Below, piece by piece: positions 12,120-39,278 of a stretch of DNA of 39,427 nucleotides (position 1 is the stretch's first letter; every line of letters begins with the position of its first letter). A model generated the notes under the pieces. It had not been told where the DNA came from and searched no databases. It worked only from the letters and a program-made list of their open reading frames with translations. Origin of the DNA: Thermodesulfobacteriota bacterium (GTDB taxonomy: Bacteria; Desulfobacterota; Desulfobacteria; Desulfobacterales; JAUWMJ01). Position numbers and translations under genes: made by a program. Location: contig JAXHVO010000094.1 in NCBI GenBank assembly GCA_034189135.1, forward strand, positions 1 to 39,427. Direction: 5' to 3'.

Positions 12120-13163
12120 ATGAAAGTCATAAAAATTGACAAAAAAGATTGGACCGCTGGACTTGAAAAGTCAAAAAGTGCTTACCGTCTGATTGCTCCT
12201 GTTAAACAGAAGACTAAACCATTTGCCGAATTTAAAGAACTTGATAAAGGCCAGAAGCCGGATTTAACCACTTTAAACACGGTAATTTCACCTAAATCCA
12301 TTGCGTTTCCCCAGTCTGAAGTTATGTTTGAATATAACACCGACGAAAAGAGTGAAGATTGTAACCTTTTGAAAAGGCCGGCGAAAGACTATTCTCCGTG
12401 TGCGGTCATTGGTATTCGACCTTATGATGCAGCAGCCTTTCTTCTGGTTCAAAAGAACTTTGACACACCGGATTATAGAGACCCTTATTGGTGTGACGCT
12501 TATGAAGCCTGTACATTTGTCGGCCTGGCAATAAACGATCCCGATCATTCAGACTTTAGTACCAGTACAAAATCAGGCCCCTTTGACGAAAGCGGTTTGG
12601 ATGTGCTTTTGGTTGACATGACAGATCACTTCCTGGCAAAAGTGATTACGGAAAAAGGAGATGACTACCTAAAAGCAGCCGGTTGGACGGAAAAGGCGGA
12701 TACTGATGCGGCGATCAAACAAATTAATGAAGTGAAAAATAAAGCGGAAGCTAAAATCTCATCAAAGATTGCCTTTGACCAGATTGAAAAAAAATCGATC
12801 ATGGAGCTTTATGAAGCCGATTTTTGGGAGGATGTGGCCTTTGCCTGCATCAACTGCGGTACATGCACATATCTTTGTCCAACCTGCTGGTGTTTTGACA
12901 TCCAGGATGAAAATCATGGCAAATCAGGAAAACGGTTTAAAAACTGGGACAGTTGCATGTATCCATTATTTACTCACCACAGCTCCGGACACAATCCAAG
13001 AGGTACCAAACTTGCGCGTGTCCGACAGCGATTTATGCATAAGCTAAAATATTTCTTGGACAAGTATGAAGACGGAATTATGTGTGTCGGCTGTGGTCGG
13101 TGTGTCCGTTTTTGCCCAGTAAATATTGATATTCGCAAAGTTTGTGAATTGATGAATTCCTGA
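12120..13163 (+). CDS. flxB: FlxB-like [4Fe-4S] dicluster protein
   Basis: The 347-residue protein belongs to the family containing AsrA (anaerobic sulfite reductase A) and the beta subunit of sulfhydrogenases. The N-terminal domain has GIRPYDAAA and the DPYWCDAYEACTFVGLA segment. Two [4Fe-4S] motifs follow: C243, C246, C249 and C253 (CINCGTCTYLCP) plus CWC, and C322, C325, C328 and C332 (CVGCGRCVRFCP). NWDSCMYPLFT between them is a family hallmark. It lies 43 bp after flxC and before the FAD/NAD subunit, an arrangement also seen in AsrAB. It probably hands electrons from FlxA to the iron-sulfur chain. Confidence 0.78.
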   Translation: MKVIKIDKKDWTAGLEKSKSAYRLIAPVKQKTKPFAEFKELDKGQKPDLTTLNTVISPKSIAFPQSEVMFEYNTDEKSEDCNLLKRPAKDYSPCAVIGIRPYDAAAFLLVQKNFDTPDYRDPYWCDAYEACTFVGLAINDPDHSDFSTSTKSGPFDESGLDVLLVDMTDHFLAKVITEKGDDYLKAAGWTEKADTDAAIKQINEVKNKAEAKISSKIAFDQIEKKSIMELYEADFWEDVAFACINCGTCTYLCPTCWCFDIQDENHGKSGKRFKNWDSCMYPLFTHHSSGHNPRGTKLARVRQRFMHKLKYFLDKYEDGIMCVGCGRCVRFCPVNIDIRKVCELMNS

Positions 13164-32748: not shown

Positions 32749-33183
32749 AATTCAAGACCTCTTTATTCACATTTCCTTAAGATAGTCAGTTACCTTCATC
32801 ACAACCATATTAAAAAATCAGATTATTGAGATTAATCAACCTTCAATTTTCATGTTTGCCGAAAGATAGCTGGATTAGCAAAAAAATGAAGCCAAAGAGC
32901 AAGGAAACTGGTTTTCTCGAAATCATTTTTATATGTAAAAAATTGGATGCCATTGGGTTCCATTATTGCTTTGTCTGTGGGAAATATGAAATATTTTACA
33001 TACTTTTTAGGCAATTGTGAAATTATTTACATAATAATGAAGCTGGATTTGTGTAACACTTATCAACGATAAAAGGTATCATCTTAATAGGCATTAAGCT
33101 ATAATAGCATAACTGATTAAAATTATAAATAAAATTTAAACGGGCAAATTAGTCAAAAAAATAATACCAGTGCTTGATCTAAC
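32749..33183. other. AT-rich gene-free region upstream of a sigma-54 promoter
   Basis: No gene is supported; a 64-codon open frame at 32826-33020 lacks a ribosome site and has no family features. Two copies of TTTACATA occur at about 32994-33002 and 33026-33034, followed by GTGTAACACTTAT. They lie 150-190 bp upstream of the sigma-54 promoter, where activator sites usually are. The role of these words is inference. Confidence 0.4.
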
Positions 33184-33198
33184 TGGCATATCTCTTGC
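33184..33198 (+). promoter_or_regulatory. Sigma-54 promoter for the PEP-CTERM gene
   Basis: TGGCATATCTCTTGC carries the invariant GG and GC of the -24/-12 consensus with exactly the required spacing. Transcription would start near 33209, about 50 nt before the ATG of the PEP-CTERM gene. Sigma-54 promoters are known to precede many short PEP-CTERM genes in organisms with PrsR-type activators. Confidence 0.85.
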
Positions 33199-33260
33199 TG
33201 ATATCTATTCCAAAAGTGTTTAATATTTTGAAATTTGATTTTTGCAAGAGGAGAGATTGC

Positions 33261-33482
33261 ATGAAGAAAGTTTTAATTGTTTTGCTTGTTTCAATTTTAG
33301 CAATCGTTTTAATAAATTTTGTTTTCACCGGAAACGTTTTTTCATTACCTCCCCCCAATCTAATTAGCACTTTTTATAAAGATTCTAACGTCTCCATTCC
33401 CGAACCTGCCACAATGTTTCTGCTTGGCATAGGTCTGATTGGTATAGCTGGTTTCGGAAGAAAGAAACTATTTAAAAAGTAA
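33261..33482 (+). CDS. Small PEP-CTERM sorting-domain protein
   Basis: A 73-residue exported protein. The N-terminus is a signal peptide (KK at 2-3, hydrophobic 4-23). The C-terminus is a complete PEP-CTERM sorting signal: PEP at 47-49, a hydrophobic stretch (TMFLLGIGLIGIAG) and a basic tail (GRKKLFKK). Such signals are processed by exosortase, usually in organisms making exopolysaccharide. The mature part would be only about 20 residues, so it may be structural or a matrix component. An AGAGGAGAG ribosome site precedes the ATG. A sigma-54 promoter and a strong terminator make it a single-gene unit. Exosortase itself is not in the window. Confidence 0.88.
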   Translation: MKKVLIVLLVSILAIVLINFVFTGNVFSLPPPNLISTFYKDSNVSIPEPATMFLLGIGLIGIAGFGRKKLFKK

Positions 33483-33565: not shown

Positions 33566-33841
33566 CTAGCTACCACGACGATCTGTGTTATTTCTTCTTT
33601 CCGGAATATGGAGAGAATATTGAAATTGCCTACGATTTCCGACTGCCCGCCGCCCAACGCCTCTTTTTTCCGCGATATGATATGTATAATCAAATTTACG
33701 GCGTTCTCTTGCTTTCCATCGATTGCTACTTCTTCTTTCCGGAATACAAAATGAATACCTGAACATTCGACACTCCCGGCTTGTTCTAATACTTCGGAAT
33801 CCAGAGCTCTTTAATTTTGGCATTATAAAGTGATTTCTCAT
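33566..33841 (-). CDS. Small basic protein with three 23-residue repeats
   Basis: The minus strand encodes a short basic protein whose C-terminal two thirds consist of three consecutive 23-residue units with the pattern RRxFxYSxHIPERRxxxxRR (units begin CRMFRYS, RRKFDYT and RRQFQYS; the second has IAEKR for IPERR). It ends just before a bidirectional terminator, which supports this strand over the mirror-image open frame on the plus strand. I recall similar IPERR...DRR segments in other deltaproteobacterial proteins, but assign no function. The start is uncertain: ATG at 33841 or 33823, neither with a strong ribosome site. Confidence 0.6.
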   Translation of the reverse strand: MRNHFIMPKLKSSGFRSIRTSRECRMFRYSFCIPERRSSNRWKARERRKFDYTYHIAEKRGVGRRAVGNRRQFQYSLHIPERRNNTDRRGS

Positions 33842-33926
33842 AACGATTATTAATAGATCAGGAAAATTAAAGGAAAAGCGCAAGATTTAGAATTTTGATG
33901 AACGCGTAAAAAGCCTTTAATCGCCG

Positions 33927-34053
33927 GATGACGTCGTAGAAAGGCTTATATACAAGGCGTAGTGGTTTTTCAGGGACGAGACTATACAAATAGTATGTCG
34001 AGTTTCTGAAAAAACGCTACAACGCAGTAGATGAGACTTTCTGCGCCGTCATC
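33927..34053 (-). repeat. Long palindromic repeat, copy 2
   Basis: The reverse complement of this segment aligns end to end with the element at 26026-26152, with only scattered substitutions. It is itself an imperfect palindrome (CGTCGTAGAAAGGCTTATA with its complement at the far end; TTTTTCAG around the core). Its right end meets the stop codon of the minus-strand sigma-54 activator gene. Dispersed intergenic repeat; no protein. Confidence 0.8.
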
Positions 34054-35101
34054 AGAATTTTGGAGGACGTTCGATATTAAGATCACTGATCTTATATAAT
34101 AGCGTCTTATAACTTATTTTCAAAATTTTGGCGGCTTTGCTTCGATTCCAATCTGTCCTGCCCAAAACATAAGAGATCGCCTCTTTTTCAACCTTGTCAA
34201 GAGTCCTTTTCTTTATTTCTTTAAGGGAAAATGAGTCAAGATCAGGTGGAGAACCGACTGCAGAATTGAGTATATCAGAGACAATTGAATGCTCTTTTGA
34301 AGATGTCTCTGCAACTGCCAAATCGTCTGTGGCATAGCTGCTGTGTGTAAGTTCACTAACAATTTCTTCCCAATTGCCCATCACCAGAATTCGTTTCAGC
34401 ACATTCTGAAGTTCTCTAACATTTCCAGGCCAATGGTATTTTTTCAGCTTTTCGATTAAGCTGTAATCGGGCTTTACCTCAGTATTTTTAAATCGAGGCG
34501 AGTATTTTCTTAAAAAATGATCTATCAGAACCGGGATATCTTCCGGTCTTTCGCGAAGAGGGGAAATATAGATTTTTATAATGTTCAGCCGAAAGTACAG
34601 GTCTTCCCTGAACTTTTCATTTTTAATGTCTTTCTCAAGTTCATGGTTGGTGGCGGCTAATATCCAAGTATCTGTTTTTAAATCTTTTTCAGAGCCCAAG
34701 CGGGAAAATTCCCCACTTTGAAGAACATGGAGAAGTTTTGCTTGAAGAGAAATGGACATATCGCCGATTTCATCCAATAGTAAAACTCCTCCATGAGCCA
34801 TTTCGAATTTTCCGCGTCTTCTGCGTTCAGCTCCGGTAAAAGCTCCCTGTTCAAAACCGAAAAGTTCACTTTCAAGCAGCCCGTCCGGTAGTGCAGCGCA
34901 GTTGATTTTAACAAAGGGCTTTCCTTTCCTGGGTGACTTCTGGTAAAGGTTTTGTGCAACCACCTCTTTGCCGACACCACTTTCTCCGCAAATAATTATA
35001 TTCAAACCTGTGTCGGCAACGTGATTTATAAGCTCTTTTGTTTTAACTAAATTAGCGCTTACACCGATTAAGGGAGAAATTTTTTGCAAATTGTTATTCA
35101 T
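34052..35101 (-). CDS. Sigma-54 interacting AAA+ activator with Fis-type HTH
   Basis: A 349-residue activator lacking its own receiver. The central AAA+ domain has Walker A GESGVGKE (39-46), the sigma-54-contacting GAFTGA loop (86-91), Walker B GGVLLLDEIGD with D110, the arginine segment FREDLYFRLN and WPGNVREL. The C-terminus carries a Fis-family helix-turn-helix (DWNRSKAAKILKISYKTLLYKI). The upstream gene, three bases away, encodes a lone receiver, so the two may act as a split NtrC-type regulator. It is the likely activator of the nearby sigma-54 promoters (inference), as PrsR is in PEP-CTERM systems. Confidence 0.92.
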   Translation of the reverse strand: MNNNLQKISPLIGVSANLVKTKELINHVADTGLNIIICGESGVGKEVVAQNLYQKSPRKGKPFVKINCAALPDGLLESELFGFEQGAFTGAERRRRGKFEMAHGGVLLLDEIGDMSISLQAKLLHVLQSGEFSRLGSEKDLKTDTWILAATNHELEKDIKNEKFREDLYFRLNIIKIYISPLRERPEDIPVLIDHFLRKYSPRFKNTEVKPDYSLIEKLKKYHWPGNVRELQNVLKRILVMGNWEEIVSELTHSSYATDDLAVAETSSKEHSIVSDILNSAVGSPPDLDSFSLKEIKKRTLDKVEKEAISYVLGRTDWNRSKAAKILKISYKTLLYKISDLNIERPPKF

Positions 35102-35104
35102 ATA

Positions 35105-35488
35105 TCAAGCCCTATTTTTTCTTGAAAGTAAATCAAGAACGAAACCTTCCAGTTCATCAAGCTGTAATGGCTTTGACAGTATCAGGTCGGCATTTGCTTC
35201 TGAAGCCAGTGATTCGGGATGTTCACCCCATCCTGTAATTGCGATGACCGGCGTATCGGGATTTTTTTTCTTTATAATAGAGATAACAGCAACCCCGCTG
35301 ATATTGGGCATTACAAGATCAGTTATTACCAGATCAAACCCTTTTTTATCAGATTCGAACAGTTTAAGTCCGTCAAGGCCGTTAAGTGAAGAGACAACCT
35401 CATAATTTTTCTTACTGAAAAACGCATGAAGCATGGTTAGGGTTTCTTCGTTGTCGTCAATAATGAGCAATTTGTATGGTTTATCCAT
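35105..35488 (-). CDS. Stand-alone response-regulator receiver
   Basis: A 127-residue CheY-like receiver with the acidic pair D11/D12, phosphoacceptor D57 (LVITDLVMPNISG), T85 (VIAITGW) and K106 (LSKPLQ), with no output domain. It is the first gene of a two-gene minus-strand unit with the sigma-54 activator, separated by three bases. No histidine kinase is encoded in the window. The receiver probably controls the activator by contact, or belongs to a phosphorelay encoded elsewhere. Confidence 0.9.
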   Translation of the reverse strand: MDKPYKLLIIDDNEETLTMLHAFFSKKNYEVVSSLNGLDGLKLFESDKKGFDLVITDLVMPNISGVAVISIIKKKNPDTPVIAITGWGEHPESLASEANADLILSKPLQLDELEGFVLDLLSRKNRA

Positions 35489-36130
35489 TTTTAGCCTCTT
35501 ATTGGGTTATTGTTTGCAACCCCGGAGGAATAACTCCTTGGGATTCTACCCGATGGAATAAAAATAAATTCAATTGGACCCCGATATGGTAGATTTACGC
35601 TATAATATCGGCTGACAAGCCCGCTTTGCTTCCACAGACAGAGTATGCTATTTCCAATTACATTGAATTCTAGTCTTTCGTCATTTGCCTTATTAAAATG
35701 GCTATTGAATATGATAAACCGATAGGTTGCAGTTAAATTAGATTATAGAGCGTTTTGGGATGTATAATGTTCACATTTGGTGAATACCATGGTGGTATCA
35801 ACCTCTGAATTCAGGTTTCAACAGGAAACCATGAGCATAGTAGTTAATGTGCTCTCTAAATTTTATAAAGTATTTACATGAAATTAGCAAGTATATTATT
35901 TGAAATGAGTTGGCATAACTTTACACAATATTAATGAAATAATATTCACATTATAGGAAAATATTTTCTCATTATTTTACTAATCAAATCAACAAATGAC
36001 AAATCAATTTAATTTTAACAAAAAATTATCTATATTGAAAGCATTATTTTATCAATAAATAGCAACACTTTTCGAATAGTATTGATCATATTTGTTTAAA
36101 AATCGGGTTAATTGATAATATTCTGCATTT

Positions 36131-36145
36131 TGGCATAGGACTTGC
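36131..36145 (+). promoter_or_regulatory. Sigma-54 promoter without an adjacent gene
   Basis: TGGCATAGGACTTGC has the GG/GC dinucleotides of sigma-54 promoters in exact register and shares the TGGCATA-N4-TTGC form with the promoter at 33184. The start point would be near 36156, about 565 bp before the next gene. It could drive a long leader for the polysaccharide operon or a non-coding RNA. Confidence 0.75.
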
Positions 36146-36406
36146 TTTTGCAATTCGCACCTTAAGCTTGCCGTACTTTAAAAATTAAATGCCTTAGTAA
36201 ATAATTTTAAAAGAAGATTACGTATCATGCTTTTTTTCACCGAAGAGTCTCAAAGTACGCAAAGAATCTTTTTTTATTGTTTTCCGCTGAGCCCCGCTAT
36301 CTGAAGCTGGATAAAAGGGCGGAAAGCTATAAGGAATTCATCTCTATGAGAAAAAATTAGATATAAAAACATGTAGTTGTAACAATATAAATGCTGATTG
36401 ATTTTT

Positions 36407-36456
36407 CTTTGCCGTCCTTCCTGTCCGCCGGTAATTTTGGTGGATCAACGGCAAAG
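36407..36456 (+). other. Stable hairpin in the regulatory region
   Basis: CTTTGCCGT (36407-36415) pairs perfectly with ACGGCAAAG (36448-36456). Inside, TCCGCC and GGTGGA add a second 6-bp helix with one wobble. It is preceded and followed by AT-rich sequence. It lies 250-300 nt downstream of the orphan sigma-54 promoter and could be part of its transcript. No known RNA family is recognised. Confidence 0.45.
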
Positions 36457-36721
36457 AAATAAATTTCTTACTTTGCGAACTCAGCGTCTTGAGCGAAGCC
36501 CCGCTTAGCGCGGGACAAGCCGGGCGGTTAAAGAAACCTATATGGAATACGCTATGTTATGTATATAGCCATGGATAGGCTTACAGTCCATTGCAATAAG
36601 GGTTGAATGATGAAAAACTCTTTTTTCCCTATGAGCTGTTCATGCAACTGACTACAAACAACCGACAACAAACAAGTGTCAACAAGCAATTTATCCTCTT
36701 CTAATAAGATTAGAGAAAAAA

Positions 36722-37711
36722 ATGTTAAACAAGTGCCCAACGATAGTCGGGAACAATCCGGAAATAGTTAAAATAAGAGAGATGATTCCGGAACTTAGCC
36801 GTTCCAGCGAAACGGTTCTTCTAAAAGGTGAAAAAGGGACGGGCAAAGAACTTATTGCAAAAGTTATACAGCACAAGTCCGCCAGAGCGAAAAATCCGTT
36901 TATAAAAGTAAACTGTTCTGCATTATCAAACCAAATGTCTGAAATTGAACTTCTCGGGAGAAATGTAAAGGCGATTAAAGATTTAAAGCAGCGTAAAAAG
37001 GGAATTTTTTCAGTTGCAGACACAGGAACTCTCTTTTTCAATGAGATTGGACAGTTGCCGCCTGCGTATCAGGCTGAACTTATGATTCTGAAAGAAAACC
37101 TTATGTCAAAAACCATGGCTAAAACAGAAGAAAAAGTTGACGTCCGAGTAATTGCCTCTACCAGTACTGATCTTGAGTCATTAGTTCGGAAAGGAGCTTT
37201 TCTGCAAAAACTTTATTACAGACTAAATGCGGTCAGCATAATAATACCGCCACTGAGATACAGGTTGGAGGATATACCATTTATAGCTGATTTTTTTACT
37301 GATAAATACTGTGCAGAATTAGGCAAAAAACATTTCAAGTTGTCGCAAAAAACAAAAAGTGAATTTTTCAATTATCATTGGCCGGGTAATATTTTGGAAC
37401 TAGAGAACCTGGTAAAAGGTGCAGTGGCACTCGGTAATGAAGATCACTTAATTTTTCAACATAAATGGAAAGACAGGAAAAATGAATATACACATAATTT
37501 TAATGAGTTAACAGATATAAAAAAACATAAAAAGAGTTCAGGCGATTTACCCTTAAAGGATATTTGCAGGGAAATTATTGCGCAGGCAGAACAGAAACTT
37601 TTGAAACAGGCCCTTGAGAAGACAAACTGGAACAGAAAAAAGGCAGCAATGATGCTGCATATCAGTTACAAGTCACTGTTGAACAAAATAAAGGCATACA
37701 ATCTTACCTAA
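36722..37711 (+). CDS. Degenerate sigma-54-activator-like regulator
   Basis: A 329-residue protein with the fold of sigma-54 activators but altered key sites. Walker A is intact (GEKGTGKE, 36-43). The GAFTGA loop is gone: after IELLGRN comes VKAIKD at about residues 82-87. The Walker B aspartate is replaced in LFFNEIG (N107 where DEIG is expected). The sensor and RLNAVSIIIPPLRYRLEDI region, WPGNILELENL and the C-terminal Fis-type helix-turn-helix (NWNRKKAAMMLHISYKSLLNKI) are kept. It therefore should bind DNA but not remodel sigma-54. It lies 16 bp before the chain-length gene, so it probably regulates that operon. Confidence 0.88.
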   Translation: MLNKCPTIVGNNPEIVKIREMIPELSRSSETVLLKGEKGTGKELIAKVIQHKSARAKNPFIKVNCSALSNQMSEIELLGRNVKAIKDLKQRKKGIFSVADTGTLFFNEIGQLPPAYQAELMILKENLMSKTMAKTEEKVDVRVIASTSTDLESLVRKGAFLQKLYYRLNAVSIIIPPLRYRLEDIPFIADFFTDKYCAELGKKHFKLSQKTKSEFFNYHWPGNILELENLVKGAVALGNEDHLIFQHKWKDRKNEYTHNFNELTDIKKHKKSSGDLPLKDICREIIAQAEQKLLKQALEKTNWNRKKAAMMLHISYKSLLNKIKAYNLT

Positions 37712-37727
37712 AAAGGACTATAAGAAA

Positions 37728-39278
37728 ATGCGAAATCCCACAGAAACAATTAAACCTAAAGAGATCATCGAGATAGTTTTAAGACGCCGCTGGTACATTA
37801 TCATACCGTTTTGCTTATTAATGATTGCAGGGATATGTGCCGTATTTGTTCTGCCTAAGATTTACACTTCAAGCACCTTAATTCTAATACAATCTCAGAA
37901 AGTGCCTGAAGAATTTGTCCGGTCTCTTGTTTCTGCTGATCTTGATTCCAGAATAAATACCATATCCCAGCAAATAAAAAGTCGTACAAATCTTGAAAAG
38001 ATAATAAAAGAATTCAACCTGTTTCCCAAGCCGGAACATGACCAGATTTTTATAGAAGACAAAGTTGAGGCGATCCGTGACCGAATTTCAATTGATCTTA
38101 TAAGAGAACGCCGCAGGACTTCTGCGGATGCTTTTTCGATTTCCTTCAAAGGAAGGGACCCCGAAGCGGTTAAAAATGTAACCAACGCTCTTGCCAATTA
38201 TTTTATACAGGAAAATCTTAAATTCAGGCAGGACCGGGTAATGGGGACCAATGTCTTTCTTCAGAATCAGCTGAGTACTATGAGAAACAGACTTGAGGAA
38301 CTTGAAAAAACAATAAAGAATTACCGCGAACGAAACATGGGGAGTCTTCCTGAACAGCTTGAAACCAATTTAAGGATACTTGACAGGTTACAGGCGCAGC
38401 TCGGTGAGAAGCAAGAAAGTCTTAGGGATGCAAAGAACAGACTTGCTATGTTGGAAAACCAGATACCAAGTATAACTGAAACCCAGACTTCAGAACATAC
38501 AGTTCAACCGGGAATCGGAGATTCTTCAGATCCCGAACAAATAAAAGAACAGCTTACCAGTCTTAAATTAAGATATACTGATAAGCATCCTGATGTTATA
38601 AGGCTTACAAAGACTCTGGCAGACCTTGAGGCAGCCGGAAAAAACGGCGCAGAATCGCCCACAGGATTGTCGCGCCTCAGTGCTTCTGACAGAAGACAGT
38701 ACGAAGAGATAAAAAGGGAAATAAAGACCCTGGAAGAGGATATTTTAGAAACTACTAACCAAATACAGGCTATTGAAAAACGGGTTGAGAATACTCCGAA
38801 AATGGAACAGGAGCTTTTATCTTTAAAAAGGGATTATGATAATATAAACGAAACATACAATTCTTTATTAGCCCGTAAGCTCGAAGCCGAGATGTCGGTT
38901 AACATGGAAAGCAAGCAAAAAGGTGAACAGTTCCGAATAATAGACCCCGCCAGGAAAGCGGAAAGACCGAGCGAACCTGATCTGAAAAAATTGTTTATTC
39001 TTTTTATCGCAGCCGGTTTAGGTATAGGTGGTGGCCTGGTTTTTCTGCTGGAGTATCTCGATTCTTCATTCAAAACCCCGGATGATATTGAATCGCACCT
39101 TGACCTTCCCGTTCTTGCAACTGTTCCAGCAATACTTCATCCCAGAGATGTAAGAATGAAAAGACTCAATCAGGTACTAAGTATTTTTTTTATTATTGTA
39201 ACCATTGCATTGCTGGCCGGATTTACTTTTGTTTCACTATCAGGCTTTGACCTGGAGAGCCTTAAAAACATTACATAA
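37728..39278 (+). CDS. Wzz/GumC-type polysaccharide chain-length protein
   Basis: A 516-residue inner-membrane polysaccharide co-polymerase. It has a cytoplasmic start (TIKPKEIIEIVLRRRW), a first membrane helix (about 23-42), a large periplasmic part with long coiled-coil stretches (about 180-260 and 330-400), and a second helix near 425-445, followed by the family segment YLDSSFKTPDDIESHLDLPVLATVPAI and a third hydrophobic helix near 490-510. The proline-rich region before the second helix (DPARKAERPSEPD) is typical. No C-terminal tyrosine kinase is fused. With the PEP-CTERM gene nearby, it resembles the chain-length proteins of exosortase-linked exopolysaccharide clusters. AAAGGA precedes the ATG. 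Confidence 0.88.
   Translation: MRNPTETIKPKEIIEIVLRRRWYIIIPFCLLMIAGICAVFVLPKIYTSSTLILIQSQKVPEEFVRSLVSADLDSRINTISQQIKSRTNLEKIIKEFNLFPKPEHDQIFIEDKVEAIRDRISIDLIRERRRTSADAFSISFKGRDPEAVKNVTNALANYFIQENLKFRQDRVMGTNVFLQNQLSTMRNRLEELEKTIKNYRERNMGSLPEQLETNLRILDRLQAQLGEKQESLRDAKNRLAMLENQIPSITETQTSEHTVQPGIGDSSDPEQIKEQLTSLKLRYTDKHPDVIRLTKTLADLEAAGKNGAESPTGLSRLSASDRRQYEEIKREIKTLEEDILETTNQIQAIEKRVENTPKMEQELLSLKRDYDNINETYNSLLARKLEAEMSVNMESKQKGEQFRIIDPARKAERPSEPDLKKLFILFIAAGLGIGGGLVFLLEYLDSSFKTPDDIESHLDLPVLATVPAILHPRDVRMKRLNQVLSIFFIIVTIALLAGFTFVSLSGFDLESLKNIT

Follow-up and report, generated by a model that had tools for sequence, protein, structure and literature searches.

A regulator stands at the head of an XrtA-type exopolysaccharide operon in the DNA analyzed here, a 39,427-nucleotide contig of a Thermodesulfobacteriota bacterium that we call the window. 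It has the domains of a sigma-54 activator of the NtrC family (a bEBP) and lacks most of the motifs with which such an activator works, and it is referred to below as the pseudo-bEBP. What would such a protein do in front of this operon, a short distance from an intact activator? The features on which our answer is built are collected in Table 1.

TABLE 1 Features of the pseudo-bEBP locus in the window
Feature	Position	Strand	Residues	Basis or remark
Pseudo-bEBP ORF	36722..37711	+		329 aa, ATG start; NtrC-family AAA+/Fis-HTH, without receiver domain
Walker A, GEKGTGKE, intact	36827..36850	+	36-43	Coordinates derived from residue numbers
L1 loop, KAIKDL in the place of GAFTGA	36956..36994	+	79-91	Alignment
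Walker B, TLFFNEIG, Asp replaced by Asn107	37028..37051	+	103-110	Glu108 retained
Fis-type HTH, recognition helix ISYKSLLNKI	37571..37705	+	284-328	HTH_8
XrtA-system chain length determinant, next operon gene	37728..39278	+		TIGR03007, 319.7 bits, above cut-off
Stand-alone receiver, divergent	35105..35488	-		PF00072, 76.6 bits
Partner, intact receiver-less bEBP	34052..35101	-		GAFTGA, LDEIG, Arg fingers, sensor II
Small PEP-CTERM protein (...SIPEPATMFLLGIGLIGIAGFGRKKLFKK)	33261..33482	+		Start codon inferred; probable target of the same regulator
Sigma-54 promoter of the pseudo-bEBP/exopolysaccharide operon, TGGCATAGGACTTGCT	36131..36146	+		Position matrix
Second sigma-54 promoter, before the PEP-CTERM gene, TGGCATATCTCTTGCT	33184..33199	+		Position matrix
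Candidate enhancer site 1, TTGGCATAACTTTACACA	35910..35927			-221 from promoter 36131
Candidate enhancer site 2, AATGAAATAATATTCACA	35933..35950			-198 from promoter 36131
Candidate enhancer site 3, TAGGAAAATATTTTCTCA	35954..35971			-177 from promoter 36131
Candidate enhancer before the PEP-CTERM promoter, TATGAAATATTTTACATA	32985..33002			Motif matrix
Candidate enhancer before the PEP-CTERM promoter, TGTGAAATTATTTACATA	33016..33033			Motif matrix

The operon-heading regulator keeps the bEBP fold and has lost most catalytic motifs

Pfam matches above the cut-off to Sigma54_activat (PF00158, 149.9 bits), AAA_lid_14 (56.7 bits), and the Fis-type HTH_8 (41.0 bits), together with an unaltered Walker A, agree with a previous sequence-only reading of this DNA, in which the AAA+ frame, the Walker A, and the DNA-binding domain were retained. 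That reading also had the Walker B Asp exchanged for Asn, as we find, and the loop that contacts sigma-54 absent, which stands for the GAFTGA motif and not for the loop itself, since in the alignment with bEBPs the loop has its normal length. An AlphaFold model (mean pLDDT of 75) retained the bEBP fold, with loop residues 80 to 92 unordered (pLDDT below 50), and a fold search gave NtrX, NtrC4, ZraR, and PspF as the top solved relatives, with VpsR lower in the ranking. The alignment further showed the first arginine finger (FLQKLYYRL versus FRxDLYYRL) and the sensor-II Arg (WPGNILEL versus WPGNVREL) to be gone, and of five catalytic features examined, the window's copy lacks four in all. The protein thus has the PF00158 domain, the lid, and the Fis-type HTH of a sigma-54 activator without its GAFTGA, Walker B Asp-Glu pair, and arginine fingers/sensor-II Arg. 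Judged by these motifs, it is very probably incapable of activating sigma-54 promoters alone, and the retained Walker A hints that it may still bind a nucleotide.

Such losses are uncommon in the same genome, where a PF00158 profile search found 38 matching stretches and which has roughly 35 bEBPs; among 29 others, the Walker B Asp-Glu pair was present in 28 and the Walker A Lys in all. Another GAFTGA-less bEBP, with a receiver and an AAA+ domain, was seen on contig C65 of this genome, G000 (64472-65143, locus L202). Its loop region is shortened, its Walker B Asp-Glu is intact, its arginine finger is gone, and it apparently has no HTH; it adjoins an intact 329-aa bEBP.

The pseudo-bEBP belongs to an old clade derived from intact activators

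A scan of genome contigs for orthologues returned mostly ordinary paralogues. By position, 26 orthologues were found within one order, in many families, and they are distinct from the other bEBPs of the window's genome and of related genomes. GAFTGA was present in one of the 26 and the Walker B Asp-Glu pair in three, with no member having both, whereas the Walker A Lys was retained in 24; the arginine-finger pair, like Walker A, was mostly retained across the clade. The motifs were lost in differing combinations from member to member. The copy of the same genus, for instance, has LDEIG and no Walker A Lys, and the Walker B Asn is confined to the window's lineage, unlike the clade-wide degeneration. 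The earlier expectation that ATP hydrolysis and sigma-54 activation fail is therefore very likely correct, for the clade as well as for the window's copy. That these proteins still activate sigma-54 promoters by some unusual route is extremely improbable: the one member with GAFTGA (L181) and the three with the Walker B pair speak for it, against the lack of any member with both and the four features gone from the window's copy.

In a tree built from an alignment that omitted the loop and Walker B columns, the 23 pseudo-bEBPs included formed one clade (UFBoot 100/SH-aLRT 99) and 20 partner activators a separate one (100/100). The partners all have both GAFTGA and the Walker B Asp-Glu pair. The sister of the pseudo clade was a group of six intact receiver-bEBPs (96/89), of which five belong to another genus, g41, and the sixth to a further Desulfobacterales contig, L100. 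At least three of these head the same XrtA exopolysaccharide operon, and two adjoin the same stand-alone receiver and partner, which indicates that the pseudo-bEBP most likely derived from an intact receiver-AAA+-HTH activator at this locus. Intact receiver-activators were replaced by the degenerate form, in which the receiver, too, is usually degenerate. A recent one-off mutation is ruled out by the age of the clade.

Six of the eight members first aligned have an N-terminal receiver-like domain, which Pfam barely recognizes or misses. This domain is absent from the window's copy and from its genus-mate, and no receiver remnant was found in the leader at 36147-36722. In the pseudo-gene leader of the same-genus locus L180, the stretch between the promoter and the start codon is bounded by 16-bp inverted repeats (GAGACCTTTGCAAAAT...); relatives encode the receiver-like domain here, and the stretch may be a MITE-like insert.

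The DNA-binding end is strongly constrained and the motor part is not

Within the pseudo clade, identity was 0.11 in the loop, 0.34 at Walker B, and 0.61 in the HTH, versus 0.78, 0.83, and 0.74 among the partners. When the window was compared with its genus-mate, dN/dS was 0.13 to 0.17 for the pseudo gene, which shows purifying selection, 0.095 for the partner, and 0.12 for the chain-length gene, and the dN of the HTH of the pseudo gene was 0.05. On these comparisons, strong constraint lies on the DNA-binding end and not on the motor part. The clade is fast-evolving, and some parts may be under relaxed selection.

These values bear on whether the gene is a decaying remnant with no regulatory role. 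Its loop and Walker B drift almost freely, its receiver is degenerate and lost altogether in the window's genus, and several lineages have no copy, all of which a remnant would explain. We nevertheless consider this very unlikely in view of the open frame kept in 26 genomes of many families, the HTH at 61% identity, the dN/dS of 0.13 to 0.17 versus 0.095 for the partner, and the fixed operon position. The open frame, the dN/dS, and the conservation likewise disfavor a pseudogene.

The pseudo-bEBP heads its operon and accompanies an intact partner

The pseudo gene was correctly placed directly before the chain-length gene by the earlier reading, with a gap of 16 bp, and the arrangement is conserved. 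In the contexts inspected, nearly all orthologues are codirectional with the XrtA chain-length gene and lie immediately 5′ of it, and in many loci genes for the XrtA tyrosine kinase, a sugar transferase, and export come next. Window positions 33569-33883 (minus strand) and locus L219 encode small basic proteins with many ERR..DRR repeats, the one at L219 being downstream of a sigma-54-like site with an enhancer.

A competent activator was also expected nearby, and the divergent bEBP of Table 1 has its motifs intact. This partner was present in 22 of the 23 pseudo-bearing genomes and in 111 of the 366 others (Fisher's exact test, 2.7e-10, with the kinship of the genomes ignored). In some genomes it is not adjacent to the pseudo gene (e.g., G043, G041, and G057). 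Conversely, many partner-bearing genomes have no pseudo gene, which is missing from several lineages, and this indicates that the pseudo gene is dispensable.

The recognition-helix segment of the partner, ISYKTLLYKI, is nearly the same as that of the pseudo-bEBP, and all 29 other bEBPs examined from this genome lack it. The description of the two Fis-type tails as very similar holds for this segment and not for the tails as a whole, which are 42% identical, less than the 44% of a further bEBP encoded in this genome. The pseudo-bEBP probably recognizes the enhancers that the activator uses.

Sigma-54 promoters and tandem palindromes precede the operon and the PEP-CTERM gene

We scored sigma-54 sites with a purpose-built position matrix for the -24/-12 elements. 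In the window, this bore out the two sigma-54 promoters named in the earlier reading, both of them strong and near the pseudo gene. The one at 36131-36146 lies 591 bp 5′ of the start codon, upstream of the region that encodes the receiver-like domain in relatives. Nearly all pseudo genes were preceded by a strong predicted promoter in the same orientation, and sites scoring at least 13 numbered 34 in the real context DNA versus 6 in shuffled DNA (690 kb), with more than half of the 34 preceding a pseudo gene. At L180, we also observed a promoter similar to the PEP-CTERM one, with an enhancer at 12431 (minus strand).

Exact counting of gapped palindromes upstream of the promoters revealed no enhancer. 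When the regions upstream of 20 promoters were searched by EM, the palindrome TGTGaAAwnntTTtCaCA emerged with a log-likelihood of 105, versus 31 to 36 in three shuffles. The matrix was trained on the pseudo-gene loci, which makes its scores at those loci circular, and independent support therefore comes from the spacing, the position, and the sites before the PEP-CTERM gene. At least two sites were present in 16 of 21 loci, and neighboring sites were 20 to 24 bp apart, or two helical turns, in 23 of 36 cases; the three tandem sites of the window (35910-35971) are spaced by 21 to 23 bp. The best sites lay mostly at -152 to -222. Across the genome, the enhancer accompanied 5 of 87 sigma-54-like sites, two of the five being in the window, versus 1.4% of random 350-bp segments.

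Loci without a pseudo gene suggest who uses these sites. L297, which has lost it, retains the promoter with a weak enhancer site, and L313, which has the partner and no pseudo gene nearby, has a strong one, making the partner the likely user of the enhancer.

Two further observations concern these palindromes. At L285 (G000 C112, near 34043, minus strand), a sigma-54-like site has two strong enhancers (-128 and -105) and no clear downstream gene, and it possibly serves a small RNA or a missed small gene. Several loci other than the window (L183, L187, L190-L192, L195, and L196) have extra enhancer-like sites at -60 to -120, and these promoter-proximal sites could be the pseudo-bEBP's own.

A non-hydrolyzing antagonist of the partner as the preferred reading

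We regard it as about an even chance that the pseudo-bEBP is a non-hydrolyzing feedback antagonist, acting at shared enhancers or in mixed rings. The conserved operon position, the co-occurrence with the partner, the common recognition helix, and the tandem enhancers of one type fit a competitor or a mixed-ring antagonist, and co-occurrence with an intact partner is what the mixed-ring form in particular would predict. Under such a scheme, the stand-alone receiver and the intact partner would switch on the two sigma-54 promoters, that of the exopolysaccharide operon and that of the PEP-CTERM gene, from the tandem enhancers. The pseudo-bEBP, by now a DNA-binding, possibly ATP-binding pseudo-enzyme, would be made as the first product of the sigma-54 operon and would then return to the same enhancers, where it could compete for the sites or join the ring of the partner as a dead subunit, and polysaccharide output would be capped. 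We infer, in other words, that the partner drives both promoters and that the pseudo-bEBP binds these sites, meets the partner, and acts negatively. A pure DNA-binding plug would be too simple, given the Walker A retained in 24 of the 26 orthologues. Counted against antagonism are the low overall identity of the HTH tails, the dispensability of the pseudo gene, and the partner's position away from it in some genomes.

The same retained parts could serve the opposite purpose, with the pseudo-bEBP as a positive helper that, bound to the enhancer or as part of mixed rings, recruits or stabilizes a partner supplying the ATPase and the GAFTGA loops. HrpR and HrpS, which depend on each other and form one heterohexamer (PMC5263251), offer a precedent among bEBPs, and the arginine-finger pair and Walker A kept by most of the clade, like the near-constant presence of the partner, would suit such a role. 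Yet both HrpRS members are activators, whereas none of the 26 orthologues has both motifs, and the window's copy also lacks the first of the arginine fingers as well as the sensor-II Arg. Moreover, L297, L306, and L311 have the operon with the partner and run it without a pseudo gene. A helper is quite unlikely on this balance.

The main rival to antagonism, which we judge rather unlikely, is that the pseudo-bEBP has ceased to use sigma-54 and regulates sigma-70 promoters, activating or repressing them in response to nucleotide binding or to a second messenger. GAFTGA-less bEBPs that regulate without sigma-54 have been described, namely the NtrC proteins of Caulobacter and Rhodobacter capsulatus and VpsR of Vibrio cholerae (PMC10274813). 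VpsR controls exopolysaccharide and matches the pseudo-bEBP both by sequence (PDB 7v2b, 3.8e-36) and by fold; the retained Walker A would also suit such a regulator. However, a sigma-54 promoter and enhancers of a single type precede the host operon, the recognition helix resembles that of a sigma-54 partner, and no sigma-70 target of the pseudo-bEBP is known. In the tree, which has no VpsR, its nearest relatives are sigma-54 activators encoded at this same locus, and the likeness to VpsR is therefore probably convergent.

Relation to known systems

With no GAFTGA and altered catalytic motifs, the pseudo-bEBP resembles VpsR as an atypical, exopolysaccharide-linked NtrC-family protein, but VpsR acts on sigma-70 promoters (PMC10274813), whereas here a sigma-54 promoter, enhancers, and an intact partner are found. 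The Caulobacter and R. capsulatus NtrC proteins likewise regulate despite the loss of GAFTGA (PMC10274813); they differ in having kept a phosphorylated receiver, and Caulobacter NtrC requires the Walker B Asp, while the window's copy has no receiver and an Asn. HrpR/HrpS also place two bEBPs jointly at one sigma-54 promoter (PMC5263251), both of them activators, unlike the pair here, in which one is predicted to be catalytically dead.

Sigma-54 control of PEP-CTERM genes is known from PrsK/PrsR (PMC1569441; PMC9850573). The 3′ end of their upstream motif, TTTACA (PMC1569441), occurs in some of the sites here, although that motif lies about 63 nt upstream and the enhancers here near -150 to -220. 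An assignment of the pseudo-bEBP to PrsR is rejected: against TIGR02915, it scored 211 bits and the partner 284.5 bits versus a cut-off of 502.6, and the search of the window's genome with the PrsK (TIGR02916) and PrsR profiles gave nothing above the cut-off, leaving the genome without a PrsK. DVUA0057 of Desulfovibrio vulgaris is also a sigma-54 response regulator of PEP-CTERM genes and lies in an exopolysaccharide operon, and the sections of its description drawn on here report no degenerate partner (PMC3333781).

In the literature searched, we found no conserved family of operon-heading pseudo-bEBPs, each paired with an intact sister, behind a sigma-54 promoter. Single GAFTGA-less bEBPs were known already. 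With slightly less than even confidence, we propose that this order-wide family, descended from sigma-54 activators, consists of built-in antagonists of the sister activator, each encoded at the head of the operon that it holds back, and that sigma-54-driven exopolysaccharide output would thereby be self-limiting at the enhancer. If true, a dead AAA+ subunit would here serve as a regulator in nature, and the family would offer a natural test of the number of dead subunits that the ring of a sigma-54 activator tolerates. Where a genome lacks PrsK/PrsR, its XrtA/PEP-CTERM loci may have a regulator of the kind suggested here, and the enhancer sites are directly testable.
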